A DNA stretch of 44,924 nucleotides, from the NCBI GenBank assembly GCA_025463565.1, contig JAODAT010000032.1, positions 1-44,924 of the forward strand, read 5' to 3'. Below are positions 5,927 to 35,166 of this stretch, one piece after another. Positions within the stretch are counted from its first letter, which is position 1, and each line of letters begins with the position of its first letter. The position numbers and the translations under genes were made by a program. The notes beneath the pieces were generated by a model. It ran no database searches, had not been told where the DNA came from, and saw nothing but the letters and a program-made list of their open reading frames with translations. Origin of the DNA: Microbacteriaceae bacterium. Its GTDB lineage: Bacteria; Actinomycetota; Actinomycetes; Actinomycetales; Microbacteriaceae.

Positions 5927-6747
5927 GGCTCGTGAGCGTCGGCAACATCATCGTCGACGTGCTGCTCTCGGTTCCGGCGCTGCCGGAGCGCGGCGGCGAC
6001 ATGCTCGCCACCAGCGGCGGGATGTCGCCGGGCGGCAGCTTCAACACCCTCGTCGCGGCGACCCGGCAGGGTCTTCGCTCCGCCTATGCCGGTGGCCACG
6101 GCACGGGCCCGATGGGCGACCTCGTGAGGTCGGCTCTCGCTCGGGAGGGCATCGAGCTGCTCTCCGAGCGGTCGGATGCCGACACCGGCTTCGACGTTGC
6201 CATGATCGACGCAGGGGGCGAGCGCAGCTTCGTCACCGCGTTCGGTGCGGAGGCGCAGATCACCTCACTGCCCGGACTGGAGCCCGGCGACCTCGTGCAC
6301 GTCTCCGGGTATGGGCTGCTGCCGTCCACGAATGCCGCCGTGGTTACCGCGTGGCTGGACACGGTCGACGCGACGGTGCTGCTCGATCCCGGGCCGCTGG
6401 TCGCGGACATTCGCGTTCTTGATCGTGTCAAACGCCGCACGACCTGGCTGAGCTGCAACGAACGGGAGGCCGCGCTGGTCGGTGACGGCTGGGATCACAC
6501 CGTGGTGCGACTCGGACCGGACGGCTGCCTGGTCGACGGGGTACACGTTCCGGGTTTCCCGGCGGACGCCGTCGACACGAATGGCGCGGGGGATGCTCAT
6601 GTCGGCGCATTCCTGGCCGCGCTCGCCGCAAGACTCGACCCGCTCGAGGCCGCCCGTCGCGCGAACGCGTGCGCGGCGATCGCCGTGTCGCGCTCCGGCC
6701 CGTCGTCATCCCCCACTGCCGCGGAGGTCGACGCTTTGCTAGAGTGA
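5923..6747 (+). CDS. PfkB family carbohydrate kinase (YegV-like)
   Basis: 274-aa ribokinase-fold sugar kinase. An N-terminal [10 protein letters not shown] (37-46) contacts the sugar, and [11 protein letters not shown] (218-228) is the PfkB signature with catalytic Asp224 and the anion hole. It is slightly short but complete. The ATG overlaps the upstream TGA, making this the last gene of the five-gene operon. It probably phosphorylates the sugar or nucleoside released by the preceding hydrolase. The ZTP riboswitch begins three bases after its stop codon, so either glyA uses a promoter inside this gene or the operon reads through into the riboswitch. Confidence 0.9.
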
Positions 6748-6749
6748 CC

Positions 6750-6820
6750 TTGTCGCGACTGGCGTTCGGATGGGTGACCATCAGGGAGCGACTTGGATCG
6801 CATCGGCCGTTCGCCTGGGC
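6750..6820 (+). ncRNA. ZTP riboswitch (pfl motif) aptamer upstream of glyA
   Basis: The sequence carries the conserved pfl elements in order. P1 is GTCGC (6752-6756) with GCGAC (6788-6792). The core ACTGGCG lies at 6758-6764. P2 is GGATGG with CCATC around a GTGA loop. GGGAG lies at 6784-6788, and after a short linker the 3' domain is CCGTTCGCCTGGGC (6807-6820). GGCG (6761-6764) can pair with CGCC (6812-6815) to form the diagnostic pseudoknot. The class senses the purine intermediate ZTP/ZMP, which builds up when 10-formyl-THF is short, and commonly controls glyA, folD and pur genes. The downstream gene is glyA. I consider this firm without covariance scoring. Confidence 0.93.
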
Positions 6821-6821
6821 C

Positions 6822-6860
6822 GAGCGGATAACTCGTTTCCTATCCGTTCGATCTAAGGAG
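6822..6860 (+). promoter_or_regulatory. Riboswitch expression platform with hairpin and strong RBS
   Basis: GAGCGGATA (6822-6830) can pair with TATCCGTTC (6841-6849), a nine-bp stem with one G-U pair and a 10-nt loop. It is followed by AAGGAG (6855-6860) and the glyA ATG at 6867. There is no U-tract, so control is more likely translational or by alternative pairing with the aptamer's 3' half than by intrinsic termination. Confidence 0.55.
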
Positions 6861-27301: not shown

Positions 27302-27646
27302 TCAGATCGGAAGGGGCTCGGGTCGGCCATCCGGCCCGAGGCTTGCGACCGTTCCCTCGTCCGTCACATACAGGCCGTGGGCCGTATTGGCGATCGCCGC
27401 GAGCTGGTCGAGCCAGTCCCGGTTGATCACGGGCGGGCGGTTTCCCTCGAACCGGTAATGAAGGTCGGTATACGGGGTTATCCAGATCATCGAACGGCCA
27501 CTGCCGCCGTTCGGCGACTCTGTCCAGGACAGGATGAATGCTTCGGTGCGGCGGAGCTTCGCCGTCATCACGATCTGGAGGTGTGCCAGCACCCGGTCGT
27601 CGAACTTCGCCTGGAATCGGCTCGCGCCGTAGAAGAGCGTTCCCAT
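27302..27646 (-). CDS. DUF7882-type small protein, copy A
   Basis: 114 aa from the ATG at 27646; the upstream extension MRAEWR is not conserved. Pattern: MGTLFYG, FDDRVLAHLQIV, TAKLRRTEAFILSW, GRSMIWI, RPPVINRDWLDQL. It is homologous to the protein at 29035-29349, which shares MGTLxYG, FDDRVLAHLQIV, KLRR and RPPxxNRxWxxxL. I associate this family with Microbacteriaceae, where entries are often labelled ATP-dependent DNA ligase; no ligase motif (KxDG) is present. Function unknown. Confidence 0.75.
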   Translation of the reverse strand: MGTLFYGASRFQAKFDDRVLAHLQIVMTAKLRRTEAFILSWTESPNGGSGRSMIWITPYTDLHYRFEGNRPPVINRDWLDQLAAIANTAHGLYVTDEGTVASLGPDGRPEPLPI

Positions 27647-27778
27647 TCGCCACTCCGCCCTCACCAGTCGAGGTCGCGGGGGCAGGGCGCCAATTCGCCG
27701 TCGGACGGCGATCGATTTCCACAGTTTAGGCGGGATGCCGTCAGCGCGTGTACCGTGCGCAGCAATGAGGAGGCACGG

Positions 27779-29034: not shown

Positions 29035-29349
29035 TCAGGTGGGCTGATTCGGATCCGGTGTCGGCTCCGTCGTGAGCTGGAGCCCCGCGGTTCTGCCTGC
29101 CGAGGCCAGCAACGATTCGACCCATTCGCGGTTGACGGCCGGCGGGCGGGAACCGGTGAAGAAGAAGTGAATGGAAACACCGTTGTCGATCCAGATCGAG
29201 TGCCGGCCACTGCCGCGTTCGAGCGGCAGTATCCAGGAGAAGAAGAAGTTCTCGCTGCGGCGGAGTTTGGTGCTGAAGACTATCTGCAGGTGGGCGAGCA
29301 CACGGTCGTCGAACTCGAAGTCCTGACCGCCATAGTTGAGTGTGCCCAC
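29035..29349 (-). CDS. DUF7882-type small protein, copy B
   Basis: 104 aa from GTG at 29349. VGTLNYGGQDFEFDDRVLAH, STKLRRSENFFFSW, GRHSIWI and RPPAVNREWVESLL parallel copy A at 27302. The C-terminus is Thr/Pro-rich and disordered. It is upstream of the small TVDG gene on the same strand (70 bp gap with hairpin) and divergent from the second TVDG gene, so the two families are physically linked twice. Function unknown. Confidence 0.72.
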   Translation of the reverse strand: MGTLNYGGQDFEFDDRVLAHLQIVFSTKLRRSENFFFSWILPLERGSGRHSIWIDNGVSIHFFFTGSRPPAVNREWVESLLASAGRTAGLQLTTEPTPDPNQPT

Positions 29350-29440
29350 GCGGCTCCCGTCAGAATGCGACGCACGACATCCGTGCGGCCCTGTGACGAA
29401 TATAACGTGAGCGCATCGCACAACGCGCTACGGTGGGCCT

Positions 29441-29689: not shown

Positions 29690-30445
29690 CTAGACCTGCG
29701 CGAGCAGAAGCTGCTCGATGTCGTGCTCCGGCACCGCGACACCGGTGAGGTAGCCCTGGGCGCGATCGCAGCCGAGGTCGCGCACCCGGTCAAGCTGGGC
29801 ATCCGTCTCGATCCCCTCAGCGACCACGCGGAGTCCCATGTCATGGGCGAGGTCGATCGTGGCCTCGAGCTGCTCGTCGCTGCCGGCGCCGGTGCGCTGC
29901 ACCAGTGAGCGGTCCATCTTGAGCTCGGTCGCGGGCAGCCGTAGCAGCTGGTCGAGTGAGGAATACCCGCTGCCGTAGTCGTCGATGGACACGGCGACTC
30001 CCGCGTTTCGTACGAACTCGAGACGGCGAGCGGCGTCGCGGTGGTCGGCGATGGCCAGGGACTCGGTGATTTCGACGATCATCCGGTTCGCAGGCAGCGT
30101 GAGCCGGTTGAGATTGCGCAGCAGGCGCTCGAAGAAGTCGGATGTGGTGAGCTGCGCCGCCGAGACATTGACCGCGACCTCAACGTCGATGCCGAGGTTG
30201 ATCCACTTCGATGCGCACCGGCAGCCCTCGTCGAGCATGAAGTCGCCGATCTCGTGGATCAGCCCATTGCTTTCGGCGAGGGGGATGTAGGCATCCGCGG
30301 TCAGGGTGCCGAGCGTCGGGTGGTTCCAGCGGCTGAGCGCCTCGACCGACGCGATGGTGCGGGTGGCGAGGTCGATCTGCGGCTGGAAGTAGGCCACGAT
30401 CTCGCGGCGCTCCACTGCGCCTACGAGGTCGTTCTCGATACTCAC
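29690..30445 (-). CDS. EAL-domain c-di-GMP phosphodiesterase
   Basis: 251 aa, essentially a stand-alone EAL domain, cytosolic. The catalytic set is complete: EAL (VEALSRW, 35-41), NVSA, EITES, the DD pair in SIDDYGSGYSSL, Lys in ELKMDRSL, Glu in AEGIET and Gln in QGYL. It should cleave c-di-GMP to pGpG. No sensor domain is attached, so control may be transcriptional or by partner. It is divergent from rsbQ-PAS-GGDEF across 229 bp, so synthesis and breakdown of c-di-GMP are encoded back to back. GTG start at 30445. Confidence 0.92.
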   Translation of the reverse strand: MSIENDLVGAVERREIVAYFQPQIDLATRTIASVEALSRWNHPTLGTLTADAYIPLAESNGLIHEIGDFMLDEGCRCASKWINLGIDVEVAVNVSAAQLTTSDFFERLLRNLNRLTLPANRMIVEITESLAIADHRDAARRLEFVRNAGVAVSIDDYGSGYSSLDQLLRLPATELKMDRSLVQRTGAGSDEQLEATIDLAHDMGLRVVAEGIETDAQLDRVRDLGCDRAQGYLTGVAVPEHDIEQLLLAQV

Positions 30446-30674: not shown

Positions 30675-31493
30675 ATGCCCCCGGCAGGCCCCGAGACGAT
30701 TGACGCAGTGGCACGCAACAACGTGTCCGTGAGCGGCAATCCTGACGGCAGGCCGATGCTGTTCGCCCATGGTTTCGGGTGCAGCCAGGAGATGTGGCGC
30801 CGAGTCACTCCGCAGTTCGAGCACGACTACCGCATCATCACCTTCGACCACGTCGGGGCGGGCGGCTCCGACCTGTCGGCCTACGACCGTGGCAAGTACG
30901 ACTCCCTCCACGGCTATGCAGACGACGTTCTCGAGATTATGGAGCAGCTTGACCTGGACGACGTAGTGTACGTAGGTCACTCGGTGAGCGCAATGATCGG
31001 TGTTCTCGCCTCCAATCGTGACCCCTCGCGGTTCGGCGAACTGGTGCTCGTTGGACCCTCGCCGCGCTATGTGAATGATGGCGACTACTACGGCGGATTC
31101 GAGCAGGTGGACATCGATTCGATGCTCGACATGCTCGACGCCAACTACCTCGGCTGGTCGTCGGTGATGGCGCCGGTGATCATGGGCAACTCCGACCGCC
31201 CCGAACTCGGCGTCGAGTTGACCGATAGTTTCTGCAGCACCGATCCGGCCATCGCCGGTCACTTCGCCCGGGTCACCTTCCTCTCCGACAACCGCAGGGA
31301 CCTGTCGCGCGTGACGGTGCCGACGCTGGTGCTGCAGTGCCAGGACGACGCGATCTCGCCCGGTCCGGTCGGCCAGTACGTGCACGAACGCATCCGGGAC
31401 AGCATTCTGATCAACTTGACGGCGACCGGCCACTGCCCCAACCTGTCCAACCCGGACGAACTATCGGCCGAGATTCGGACCTACCTCGGATGA
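30675..31493 (+). CDS. rsbQ: RsbQ-like alpha/beta hydrolase (KAI2/D14 superfamily)
   Basis: 272 aa. The sequence follows B. subtilis RsbQ closely: MLFAHGFGCSQEMW, FDHVGAGGSDLSAYDRGKYD, the nucleophile elbow VGHSVSAMIG with Ser103, LVGPSPRYVNDGDYYGGFE, QCQDDAISP (Asp225 region) and TGHCPNLSNPDE with His253. All triad residues are present. RsbQ is a cytosolic hydrolase that activates the PAS-containing phosphatase RsbP in the energy-stress branch of the SigB pathway, presumably by delivering a small ligand. Here the overlapping downstream gene is a PAS-GAF-GGDEF protein instead. ATG at 30675 with GGAGAA upstream is the start. Confidence 0.92.
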   Translation: MPPAGPETIDAVARNNVSVSGNPDGRPMLFAHGFGCSQEMWRRVTPQFEHDYRIITFDHVGAGGSDLSAYDRGKYDSLHGYADDVLEIMEQLDLDDVVYVGHSVSAMIGVLASNRDPSRFGELVLVGPSPRYVNDGDYYGGFEQVDIDSMLDMLDANYLGWSSVMAPVIMGNSDRPELGVELTDSFCSTDPAIAGHFARVTFLSDNRRDLSRVTVPTLVLQCQDDAISPGPVGQYVHERIRDSILINLTATGHCPNLSNPDELSAEIRTYLG

Positions 31494-32908
31494 CCTCGCT
31501 CCCGACGGAGCCCGAAGGCTCCCTCGAGGAGCTGTACGAGCACGCGCCCGCCGGCTTGGTGTCGCTCTCGCCGAACGGCACCATCCTCAAGGCGAACCGC
31601 ACCTTCCTCACCTGGACCGGCCGTGACGCGAGCCTCATCGGATCGCTGATCATCGACCTGCTGACACCGGGCGGTCGCATCTTCTACGAGACCCGGTTTT
31701 TGCAGGCGCTGTGGCTGCGCCGTGAGCTTCGCGAAGTCGCCATGTCGGTGTTGCGCGGCGATGGTTCGGAGCTCGCTGTACTGGTGAATGCGGTCGTGGT
31801 CGAGGGCGACGACGGTGATCCCCGCCTGGTGCGACTCGCTCTCTTCGATGCGACGGAGCGCCAAGACTATGAGCGCGACCTGCTCGCGTCGAGACGTGTG
31901 GCCGAGGCGTCGGAGGCCCGAGTGCGCGTGCTGCAGGAGGCGTCGAACGCGTTCGCTGTGGCGACAACCGAGGCCGAACTGGCGGATGCGCTGGTCGCGA
32001 GCGCGCGGGATGCTTTCGCGGCAAGCGCGGTCGCCGTCGTGCTGGTCGACGCGGAGGGCGACACCTACCTCGCGGGCGGGGTTCATCCACTGGCCGGCTT
32101 CGCCGAGGCCGACCGCGCCTCCGCCGAGATGGCGATGATCCGGCAGTCCGGCACGCTCACGGTGTCGAACCTCGATGAGGTGCGGCCGCTCTACCCGGCG
32201 TTGGCAGACGCGATGCTCGATGCCAGGGTCGAGGCGTTCAGCATCATCGTTCTGCAGGATGTGGGCGAGCCGGTGGGCGCGCTCATCTGCTTCTTCGGGC
32301 GGCGGCGCGTGTTCGACGAGCAGGACACCGCGCTGCAGGTGGCACTCGGTCGGCAATCCGCCGCGGTGCTCTCCCGCATCCGGCTGCAGAACGAGCTGGA
32401 ACTGCTGGCCATGCACGACCAGCTCACCGGTCTCGCGAACCGCAAACTTCTGCGCGAGAGCCTGCTGGGTGCGCTCGGGGCTGCCCTCTGGCATGAGCGG
32501 TCGATGGCGCTCATCTTCGTCGATCTCGACGGCTTCAAAGCGGTCAACGACGAATTCGGGCACACGGCGGGCGACGCCGTGCTCAAGTGGGTCGCGAACC
32601 AACTGAGAGCCGCGGTGCGGTCGACGGATGTCGTGGGCCGCTTCGGCGGGGACGAGTTCGTGATCATCTGCGAGAACGCCGGCGCCGACGAGGCACTTCT
32701 CATCGCGCAACGGGTTCTGTCGATGATCAATGCCAACTCGCACGAGTTTCCTGACGGCGTGCGCGTGGGTGCGAGCATCGGTGTCGCGCTGCATCAGCCG
32801 GAACCCGGCCTCGGCGCGGCGCCGGAGGCGATTTTCATCGCCGCGGACTCGGCCATGTACCGCTCGAAGCAGAGCGGCGGCGGCCAGGTGACACTGGTGC
32901 AACTCTGA
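31490..32908 (+). CDS. PAS-GAF-GGDEF diguanylate cyclase
   Basis: 472 aa. PAS domain at about 10-125 (ELYEHAPAGLVSLSPNGTIL onward), a coiled-coil linker (about 125-150), GAF domain at about 150-295, and GGDEF domain at about 305-472 with FGGDEF at 385-390. RSTD lies five residues before GGDEF, the classical allosteric I-site, so the product c-di-GMP should inhibit it. No transmembrane segment, so sensing is cytosolic. Its ATG overlaps the rsbQ stop by four bases, which predicts a functional pair: RsbQ supplies or processes the ligand and the PAS domain gates c-di-GMP synthesis (inference). Confidence 0.92.
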   Translation: MTSLPTEPEGSLEELYEHAPAGLVSLSPNGTILKANRTFLTWTGRDASLIGSLIIDLLTPGGRIFYETRFLQALWLRRELREVAMSVLRGDGSELAVLVNAVVVEGDDGDPRLVRLALFDATERQDYERDLLASRRVAEASEARVRVLQEASNAFAVATTEAELADALVASARDAFAASAVAVVLVDAEGDTYLAGGVHPLAGFAEADRASAEMAMIRQSGTLTVSNLDEVRPLYPALADAMLDARVEAFSIIVLQDVGEPVGALICFFGRRRVFDEQDTALQVALGRQSAAVLSRIRLQNELELLAMHDQLTGLANRKLLRESLLGALGAALWHERSMALIFVDLDGFKAVNDEFGHTAGDAVLKWVANQLRAAVRSTDVVGRFGGDEFVIICENAGADEALLIAQRVLSMINANSHEFPDGVRVGASIGVALHQPEPGLGAAPEAIFIAADSAMYRSKQSGGGQVTLVQL

Positions 32909-32912
32909 GGCG

Positions 32913-33776
32913 CTAGCGGCGCTTCTTGTGTCGTGCGGTCATTCGCAGTTCCCGGCGCGCGGCTATCGCCACTTCCGACGCGGTCGGCCGGGCCGACGGG
33001 TCGCCTGCGGTCATCGCGGCGAGGAGTGACCGCCAGCCGTCCGGCAGGTCGTTCGGTATCACCGGGTCATGCTCAAGTCGCGCGAGAGCCGACTCGACCG
33101 GGTCGCCGGGGAAGGCGATCTGGCGGGTGAACGCCTCGAGAAGCACCAGGCCCAGCGAATAGATGTCCGAGGCAGTGGTCAGCGGCTCGAGCCGCGCCTG
33201 CTCGGGGCTGAGGTAGGCGGCAGTGCCCTCGGTGATCCCGTCGCTCGACGGGTTCGTTCCTGTTTCGAGTGCGAGACCGAAGTCGGTGAGCCGTGCCCGG
33301 GGGCGCGAGAAGGTGGTGCCGTAATCGACGATCATCACGTTCGACGGCGTGATGTCGCGGTGGATGACCCCGCGCGCGTGTACATACTCGAGGGCTTCCG
33401 CCACCTCGAACGCGATCTCGCCCACGCGTTCCTGAGCCAGTTCTCCCCGCTCGAGCAGCGTCTTCAGCGAGTCGCCGGGTACCAGTTCGAGCACCAGGAA
33501 CGGGCGCGGGTCGCGGGGGGATGATTCGTCGATGCCGGCATCGAGCACGGGAACGATGCCGTGGTGGCTGAGGCTTGCGAGCATCTTGAGCTCGGCGCGG
33601 AAGCGCTCGGTCTGACCGTGGCCGCCGGTCGTGAACAGCTTGACCGCGACATCCCGGTCCAAGTGGTTGTCCTCGGCACGGTAGACGAGCGACGACCCTC
33701 CGCGGGCGATCAACGAGCGCGGCTGGTACCGCCCCAACAGAAGAGGAGCGGTCAGCGTCGCGTCATCCATCGTCAT
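32913..33776 (-). CDS. Cytosolic Ser/Thr protein kinase (Hanks type)
   Basis: 287 aa, kinase domain only. Gly-rich loop ARGGSSLVYRAED (24-36), Lys46 in VAVKLF, catalytic HRDITPSN (139-146), DFG at 165-167 and activation segment EGTAAYLSPEQA. There are no transmembrane or PASTA regions, so it is soluble, unlike PknB. The C-terminus is basic (ARRELRMTARHKKRR). GGAGGGGAG precedes the ATG and TACAAT upstream may be its -10 box. It is convergent with the GGDEF gene and divergent from the SGNH-GAF gene. Confidence 0.92.
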   Translation of the reverse strand: MTMDDATLTAPLLLGRYQPRSLIARGGSSLVYRAEDNHLDRDVAVKLFTTGGHGQTERFRAELKMLASLSHHGIVPVLDAGIDESSPRDPRPFLVLELVPGDSLKTLLERGELAQERVGEIAFEVAEALEYVHARGVIHRDITPSNVMIVDYGTTFSRPRARLTDFGLALETGTNPSSDGITEGTAAYLSPEQARLEPLTTASDIYSLGLVLLEAFTRQIAFPGDPVESALARLEHDPVIPNDLPDGWRSLLAAMTAGDPSARPTASEVAIAARRELRMTARHKKRR

Positions 33777-33936
33777 CGCGCGCAACTCCCCTCCACGATT
33801 CGTATTGTACGGAGAGGGTTCGTAGTGCACTGGGGGCTTGACGGGTCGTGCGACGGGGAATACGGGGCCAGTTTCGACACAACCCGTGTCACAGTGGCGT
33901 TCGGTGTTAGCGTGGGAATAACGCAGAGCTCCGGGG

Positions 33937-35166
33937 GTGGAGGCAATACACGAGATCGTTCGGTTGGCATTACGGCCGCTGGCAGTCCTCTGGGGGGAAT
34001 CTGTGATGGCGCGGTTGGCCCTCGGCGCGCTGCCGACAGATGATCCCCGAGCGCATTCGGCAGGTCTCGACCCGGACCGGGTGCTGCTGTTCGGCACCGG
34101 TGCGTCGGTCGGCTGGGGCGTCACCAGCCATGAGCTGGGTCTTCCCGGATCACTGGCGCGGTCGCTGACCGCGCGAACGGGTCGAGGAGCAGATGTCGAG
34201 GTGATCGCCGCGCCGTCGTTCTCCGCGTCCCAGGCCATCCATGACCTGAGGGACGCCTCGCTCTCCCGTTACGACGTTATCGTGCTGACACTGGGGCTGA
34301 CCGAGGCCGCCGGCTTTGCGAACCTTGCCGACTGGCGCCGCCACTTCGACGAACTGCTGGATTTCATCCGCCTGCGATCGCGGCGTGACGCCCGCATTTA
34401 CGCACTCGGCGTGCATTCGACCACGAAGATGACCGTGTGGGATCACCTGCTCTCGCCGGCGGCGAACGCACACCGCCGTTCGCTGAACTCCGCGACCGCC
34501 GCAGAGTGTGTCACCGGTGCCCGTGCCGCCTTCATCCCCTTCGATCCGCCACGCCAGTCGGGACAGGGGCGCTCGCGGCAGAGCTCCGACTATCGCGACT
34601 GCGCCGAGATCATCGCCGAGGTGGTGGCGCCTACCCTTGGGCTCGACGGTCCCCGCGATCGTCGCCAAGTTGGCGATCCGGATACGGAGAAAGAGCGGAG
34701 GCGCCAGAGCGCCGTCGACAGTCTCGCGATCGTCGACACGCCTGCCGAGGCGAGGTTCGATCGGATCGTGGCCCTGGCCAGGCGGGCGTTCGGCACGGAG
34801 GGTGCCGCGATGACGATCATCGATAACGACCGCCAGTGGGCGAAGTCGATCGAGGGCGATCTGCCGTTGCAGATCGAGCGGTCCCAATCGTATTGCGCCG
34901 TCACGATCGAGAGTCCCGGTGCCTTCGTCGTCGCGGATCTGCGAGCGACTCCCGTTGACGGCGTGGCAGGACAGGATCAGAACGGACTCGGGTTCTATGC
35001 GGGGTATCCCATCGAGGCACCCTCAGGCGATCGCATTGGAGCGCTCTGCGTCTACGACGCGGTGGCCAGGGACCCGGCGGATGTCGATGTGGCGCTCCTG
35101 CGCGACCTCGCCCTGATGGCTCAGAACGAGGTCTGGCAGCGCTGGTCGGGCGTCACCCGGCGTTAG
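33937..35166 (+). CDS. Degenerate SGNH-hydrolase domain fused to GAF domain
   Basis: 409 aa from GTG at 33937, which keeps the hydrophobic lead LRPLAVLWGESV seen in related proteins; ATG at 34006 with GGGGGGAA upstream is the alternative. The SGNH part (about 48-220) has block I as FGTGASVGWGV instead of GDSxxxG and block III as LGLTEAAGF instead of GxND, so catalytic residues look lost. The GAF domain (about 250-405) is similar to those in bacterial histidine kinases: DNDRQWAKSIEGDLPLQIER, and GFYAGYPIEAPSGDRIGALC. Probably a sensor of a small ligand that works with the adjacent kinase. No output domain is visible. Confidence 0.78.
   Translation: MEAIHEIVRLALRPLAVLWGESVMARLALGALPTDDPRAHSAGLDPDRVLLFGTGASVGWGVTSHELGLPGSLARSLTARTGRGADVEVIAAPSFSASQAIHDLRDASLSRYDVIVLTLGLTEAAGFANLADWRRHFDELLDFIRLRSRRDARIYALGVHSTTKMTVWDHLLSPAANAHRRSLNSATAAECVTGARAAFIPFDPPRQSGQGRSRQSSDYRDCAEIIAEVVAPTLGLDGPRDRRQVGDPDTEKERRRQSAVDSLAIVDTPAEARFDRIVALARRAFGTEGAAMTIIDNDRQWAKSIEGDLPLQIERSQSYCAVTIESPGAFVVADLRATPVDGVAGQDQNGLGFYAGYPIEAPSGDRIGALCVYDAVARDPADVDVALLRDLALMAQNEVWQRWSGVTRR

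Follow-up and report, generated by a model that had tools for sequence, protein, structure and literature searches.

A putative c-di-GMP control unit of three genes around the RsbQ-PAS sensing module in Microbacteriaceae

In the Microbacteriaceae genome studied here, a gene for an RsbQ-type hydrolase is followed directly by a gene for a predicted PAS-GAF-GGDEF diguanylate cyclase and flanked on its other side by a divergent gene for a predicted stand-alone EAL phosphodiesterase. Together the three genes probably control c-di-GMP as a unit that uses the known RsbQ-PAS module for sensing; RsbQ would switch the cyclase and the EAL enzyme would oppose it. What is added here is the form and strength of the RsbQ-cyclase pairing in one bacterial family. 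All coordinates refer to the window, i.e. the whole stretch of 44,924 nucleotides that was analysed.

The hydrolase, cyclase and phosphodiesterase genes

The rsbQ-type gene (30675-31493, + strand) encodes an α/β hydrolase of 272 aa, and a GGAG starts 10 bases 5' of its ATG. The strong similarity to RsbQ reported in the earlier note was reproduced: the protein is 52% identical to the B. subtilis RsbQ chain (PDB 1wom), which with 306 bits and an E value of 2.5e-90 was the top hit among the matches listed, the best 60 of 269. In the same list it was followed by 3qvm (233 bits) and KAI2/D14 proteins (at most 197 bits), and the first hydrolases outside the RsbQ/KAI2/D14 group reached about 55 bits. 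The full catalytic triad is likewise present, with Ser103 (codon 30981-30983), Asp225 (31347-31349) and His253 (31431-31433), all on the + strand. Among 206 RsbQs of all output types, counted with the window and without the outlier L296, these residues are Ser in 205, Asp in 206 and His in 204. The plant receptors KAI2 and D14 belong to the same α/β-hydrolase lineage (E values from 3e-57 to 6e-43 among the matches listed); the plant proteins act via F-box partners, whereas there is none here.

The cyclase gene (31490-32908, + strand, 472 aa) overlaps rsbQ by four bases, as had been claimed, the rsbQ stop and the cyclase start sharing an ATGA (31490-31493, + strand); the same -4 offset was found in 53 of the 69 other loci. 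Directly 3' of rsbQ, and thus as the most N-terminal domain of the cyclase, an RsbP-type PAS domain is encoded (residues 12-125; 31523-31864, +), assigned by Pfam and by alignment with B. inaquosorum RsbP and expected to be the partner domain of RsbQ. It is followed by a GAF domain (residues 158-294; 31961-32371, +) and the GGDEF catalytic domain (32408-32881, +). Within the latter, the RxxD-type inhibitory site RSTD (residue 377; 32618-32629, +) and the GGDEF motif (residue 386; 32645-32659, +) are both intact, in line with the earlier note; an RxxD occurs in 57 of 69 family members and an exact GGDEF in 59 of 69. Pfam matches were clear for GGDEF (E 4.3e-40) and PAS_9 (1e-6). The GAF_2 match of the window protein is weak (8.7e-5, under Pfam's own cut-off), but relatives secure the assignment: 57 of the 70 partners in the family match this profile, the best with 5.2e-14. 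A PAS domain was detected in 69 of 70 family partners with a purpose-built HMM. Convergent with the cyclase gene lies an ORF for a Ser/Thr protein kinase (32913-34238, - strand).

The earlier note had left out the EAL gene, which belongs to the rsbQ-cyclase unit. It is divergent from rsbQ (29690-30445, - strand) and encodes 251 aa with an EAL domain match of E 3.5e-63. EALSR, NVSA, EITES, DDYGSG and AEGIE, which we take to be the usual EAL motif residues, were recognized by eye. In 28 of the 70 other loci (29 of 71 with the window) an EAL gene adjoins rsbQ in divergent orientation; in two it lies just upstream on the same strand, in nine the EAL domain is fused behind GGDEF and in four it is found elsewhere within 6 kb. 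No EAL was detected within 6 kb of rsbQ in the remaining 27 of 70, so that the unit does not always include the phosphodiesterase.

One GGDEF and one EAL were detected in the window's genome, both at the rsbQ locus; with a genome completeness of 88.4%, a second such enzyme could be missing from the data. In the same 88.4% neither a PilZ domain nor a SpoIIE-type phosphatase domain was found. There are two matches to MshEN, a domain that binds c-di-GMP in some proteins. One of them (G000:C136:7130-7384) lies in a 571-aa ATPase that by eye is PilB-like and represents one candidate for a c-di-GMP target.

Elsewhere in the window, a ZTP riboswitch (pfl) was found at 6745-6827 (+ strand; 60.8 bits, cut-off 39), as well as two DUF7882 proteins (27302-27664 and 29035-29421, both on the - strand). 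Plasmid relatives of the first of these (120 aa) are often annotated as 'ATP-dependent DNA ligase', and all 13 records with plasmid matches to it belong to Curtobacterium, Clavibacter, Cryobacterium, Microbacterium, Cnuibacter or Glaciihabitans. These six actinobacterial genera are Microbacteriaceae, which makes the same family probable for the host.

Co-conservation in genus and family

Within the genus, RsbQ (E ≤ 1e-30) was found in 5 of 13 genomes, and all five carry a GGDEF gene downstream of rsbQ and exactly one EAL gene, divergent and beside it. Six of the 13 genomes are without GGDEF, EAL and RsbQ, and the other two have only GGDEF and EAL combined in one long frame elsewhere. In a genome of completeness 100 in 2 contigs (G003), GGDEF, EAL and RsbQ each occur just once, and all three lie at this locus. 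Further GGDEF genes occur in G005 (one strong) and G001 (two weak), so that even within the genus the RsbQ-linked cyclase is not always the only one.

For wider comparison, 398 genomes of the family and 394 of the class were used, both even draws from larger groups; the family draws for the RsbQ and GGDEF counts were taken as identical. RsbQ (E ≤ 1e-40) was present in 64 of the 398 family genomes with 69 genes. Addition of two more genus genomes gave 71 family loci including the window, of which 70 were testable after L101, at a contig end, had been dropped. In 67 of these 70, window included, the partner gene after rsbQ encodes a GGDEF domain, which bears out the proposal that here the hydrolase/PAS module has a diguanylate cyclase, not a PP2C-type phosphatase, as its output. 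Since this gene order recurs so regularly, the arrangement is not due to chance. The three non-GGDEF loci are explained by a frame break (L056), a contig end (L060) and the lack of a partner (L100).

In L056 (genome G369) the rsbQ frame is open, but that of the cyclase breaks off ahead of the GGDEF domain, which is encoded in the next frame; this reflects sequencing error or decay. L100 (genome G052) is a second RsbQ, 47% identical to that of the window and without an adjoining PAS partner, possibly an orphan receptor.

The presence of the two functions was also linked at the genome level, as the earlier note had anticipated for a true pair: of the 64 family genomes with RsbQ, 63 have GGDEF (E ≤ 1e-10), vs 107 of the 334 that lack RsbQ (Fisher p 7.5e-26, a value that ignores kinship). 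At least two GGDEF genes occur in 47 of the 64 RsbQ genomes, and a single one was found in 16. Among these 16, G291 shows a weak GGDEF match and an RsbQ gene ending at a contig edge; with this genome discounted, the RsbQ-linked cyclase is probably the sole one in 15 family genomes. Moreover, distances among RsbQs and among their partners were correlated (r 0.83, n=67, without L056, L060, L100 and L101; 0.60 among close members, n=47), while the maximum of 500 shuffles was 0.27 and 0.24, respectively.

It appears very improbable that the window's genome carries the unit in a silent or degenerate state. The window cyclase does carry residues that most of its relatives lack (A21 and Q72, with A96 also a minority residue), and one relative, L056, has a broken frame. 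Against this, the three reading frames of the unit are intact, as are the triad, the GGDEF motif and the RxxD site, and its RsbQ is 67-72% identical to those of the four genus relatives.

Plasmids carry RsbQ relatives too: 72 records had a match at E ≤ 1e-40, with Streptomyces contributing 11 and Phaeobacter and Rhizobium 8 each. A search of viral contigs gave no relative.

PAS residues and outputs across lineages

The PAS domain was compared with the RsbP class using B. inaquosorum RsbP as reference, in which 9 of 10 positions agree with the published B. subtilis numbering (position 56 is Tyr there and Cys in the paper). Four positions of B. subtilis RsbP, L48, F55, Y59 and E72, are null when changed to Ala according to the available text of PMC3183031. 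Three of the four (L48, F55, E72) are retained in the window PAS, and similar residues occur at positions 13 (Val) and 53 (Arg, where the consensus of the paper is basic). Departures from the class are C10 to Ala, Y59 to Arg, P62 to Gln and P86 to Ala.

Position 59 was followed through all groups, with L100 left out of the PAS residue counts. It is Arg in 62 of 69 family members, namely in 53 of 56 of the main group, 8 of 9 of the EAL-fused and 1 of 4 of the most distant members. Both other actinobacterial GGDEF partners, from outside the family, have Ser. The phosphatase-linked relatives of the class all have His (64 of 64), as do most kinases (29 of 32); Tyr prevails among the phosphatases of Bacillota (16 of 16) and the other GGDEF partners (21 of 25). 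By this distribution Arg59 marks the window's family and not GGDEF output as such. A counterpart to Arg59 was sought in RsbQ, and at the chosen cut-offs no column was altered in both family lineages relative to phosphatase-linked relatives. At RsbQ residues 37 and 74 the main family group differs from the phosphatase group, a difference that tracks lineage.

The window PAS closes with DAT (residues 120-122), and of the 69 family members 36 end in DxT and 13 in DxS, together 49 of 69. According to the available text of PMC3183031, none of the RsbP-PAS domains of the 2011 set has a DIT motif, an absence that is a secondary trait and does not define the class. With a looser DIT-like pattern, 23 of the 64 phosphatase-linked relatives from the class gave a match; in the global set (the best 80 of at least 569 loci) 0 of 16 PPM, 0 of 25 GGDEF and 2 of 32 kinase partners did. 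With 23 of 64 in the class vs 2 of 73 partners of known output in the global set, the ending looks like an actinobacterial trait.

The outputs themselves differ between lineages. The global set consists of the best 80 of at least 569 confirmed loci by similarity to B. subtilis RsbQ; 78 were examined after removal of L131 (contig end) and L178, a possible orphan with no ORF of more than 100 aa starting within 400 bases. Purpose-built HMMs assigned 32 of these best-ranking loci to histidine kinases, 25 to GGDEF, 16 to PPM (Bacillota) and 5 to other outputs, and Pfam agreed with 31 HATPase, 25 GGDEF and 16 SpoIIE matches. By record title, 20 of the 25 GGDEF loci of this set are from Bacillota. 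Of 74 loci in the sampled class genomes beyond the family, 71 were examined (L223, L269 and L295, at or nearly at contig ends, were dropped); 64 of them have PPM, 2 GGDEF, 1 kinase and 4 other outputs; EAL was also matched by two members of this set.

A quick RsbQ tree of 109 rows (alternate loci and selected outlying ones, arbitrarily rooted) showed that output tracks lineage, with 8 changes for 7 groups against a shuffled mean of 60. Pairs with GGDEF from the family fall in at least two places of this tree, whose inner branches are weak in 50 of 106 cases. The first holds the PAS-GAF-GGDEF group of the window with some loose early branches, and the second, among phosphatase-linked RsbQs, the PAS-GGDEF-EAL group with the two other actinobacterial GGDEF pairs. 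Thus, GGDEF coupling probably arose more than once. Altogether, judged from sequence, the RsbQ-PAS pair appears as the constant and the output as the variable part across lineages.

These comparisons bear on a rival view in which RsbQ is a hydrolase of metabolism or detoxification, its gene simply shares a transcript with that of the cyclase, PAS and GAF sense something else, and RsbQ and cyclase make no contact. Such an arrangement would agree with the absence of several class residues from the window PAS and with its DAT ending, which resembles PAS domains without RsbQ in the available text of PMC3183031. We nevertheless regard it as unlikely in view of the recurrent four-base overlap, the GGDEF partners at nearly all family loci, the correlated divergence of RsbQ and partner and the pairing of RsbQ with PAS-PPM and PAS-kinase proteins in other lineages.

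Putative mechanism and relation to known systems

According to the preferred explanation, a control unit of RsbQ, cyclase and EAL enzyme, RsbQ would bind or hydrolyse a small molecule and dock on the N-terminal PAS of the cyclase dimer, perhaps also on the helix behind it. The change would travel via helical linkers and the GAF domain, a probable second input, to the GGDEF domains and set c-di-GMP synthesis, which the RxxD site would limit. The divergently transcribed EAL enzyme would degrade c-di-GMP and close a make/break circuit. The hydrolase is probably the receptor. Direct RsbQ-PAS contact is suggested by homology with the B. subtilis RsbQ-RsbP pair, the one case for which the literature covered here demonstrates it, and we infer that this contact alters cyclase activity; synthesis of c-di-GMP by the cyclase and enzyme activity of the EAL protein are predicted from their sequences. 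Counting against this explanation, the window PAS differs from the RsbP class at several positions, among them Y59, a position of RsbQ contact in B. subtilis, and it ends in DAT; EAL is missing near 27 of 70 loci and most RsbQ genomes of the family (47 of 64) have more than one GGDEF gene.

The RsbQ-PAS module was described by Nadezhdin, Brody and Price in 2011, who found 45 RsbQ/RsbP-PAS pairs encoded by adjacent genes. Their output is a PPM phosphatase, a histidine kinase or a diguanylate cyclase, the latter 'in both lineages', and the authors proposed a direct-contact mechanism of the same logic (PMC3183031). In the available text of that paper, the RsbP PAS alone bound RsbQ weakly in yeast, F55A and Y59A of RsbP lowered RsbQ contact in the B. 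subtilis pair, and the assumption of energy stress 'may be gratuitous'. For the window's pair, energy stress, which the earlier note proposed as input next to a hydrophobic ligand, is likewise an assumption. A 2025 eLife paper repeats the GGDEF coupling, citing the 2011 work; in its AlphaFold2 prediction for 2RsbP/2RsbQ, RsbQ lies between the PAS and the linker (PMC12143880). RsbQ is also treated in sigma B control in PMC7522486, in whose available text the word diguanylate is absent. The central claim of the earlier note is thus a rediscovery, since PMC3183031 described RsbQ-PAS-cyclase coupling; its phrase 'undescribed signalling route' does not hold, and a rating as categorically new was rejected on the same ground. 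In the literature searched, as far as its text was available, no experiment on an RsbQ-linked cyclase was found.

The window shares with the 2011 module an rsbQ homologue directly upstream, an RsbP-like PAS as the most N-terminal domain and GGDEF output. It differs by a GAF domain between PAS and GGDEF (the word GAF is absent from the main text of PMC3183031), by a PAS that ends in DAT and has Arg for Tyr/His at position 59, and by an EAL encoded as a separate divergent gene, whereas EAL is fused behind three cyclases of the 2011 set, which were compared by text only. Beyond that text, the GAF insert, the DIT-like PAS ending, Arg59 and the divergent stand-alone EAL are added here. The energy-stress pathway of B. 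subtilis to sigma B likewise combines RsbQ with a PAS partner encoded in an adjacent gene, but its output is PPM instead of GGDEF. In Moorella, a stress-module partner also acts on a diguanylate cyclase: RsbT controls a GGDEF cyclase via RsbU-N, as reported from experiments by Quin et al. 2012 (cited in PMC12143880), with RsbT and RsbU-N in place of RsbQ and PAS.

Within the control-unit explanation, RsbQ could make the ligand, its product in the PAS (or GAF) pocket being the signal (model 1 of PMC3183031), and we consider this to have almost an even chance. Catalysis would then be needed, since the RsbQ product would be the signal; the near invariance of the triad in 206 RsbQs of all output types and the null phenotype of triad mutants of RsbQ in B. 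subtilis (PMC3183031) are consistent with it. The same facts fit a receptor that needs the triad for binding only (model 2 of PMC3183031), and no RsbP-PAS ligand was known in 2011 according to the available text of that paper.

We further suggest, as a tentative extension, that in hosts such as this one the RsbQ-PAS pair may be the sole input of a complete, portable three-gene c-di-GMP system that is present or absent together within a genus, and that the PAS-RsbQ contact may have been re-tuned in the family (Arg59). If this is true, all c-di-GMP functions in such a host would answer to the RsbQ ligand. The physiological ligand was still an open question for RsbQ in PMC3183031 and for KAI2 in PMC10504578, as far as the available texts go. 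Since the only detected GGDEF and EAL of the host adjoin rsbQ, the c-di-GMP level would be a clean read-out for finding the RsbQ ligand. The census moreover showed one receptor module wired to three outputs by lineage, which represents a natural experiment in the evolution of signalling.
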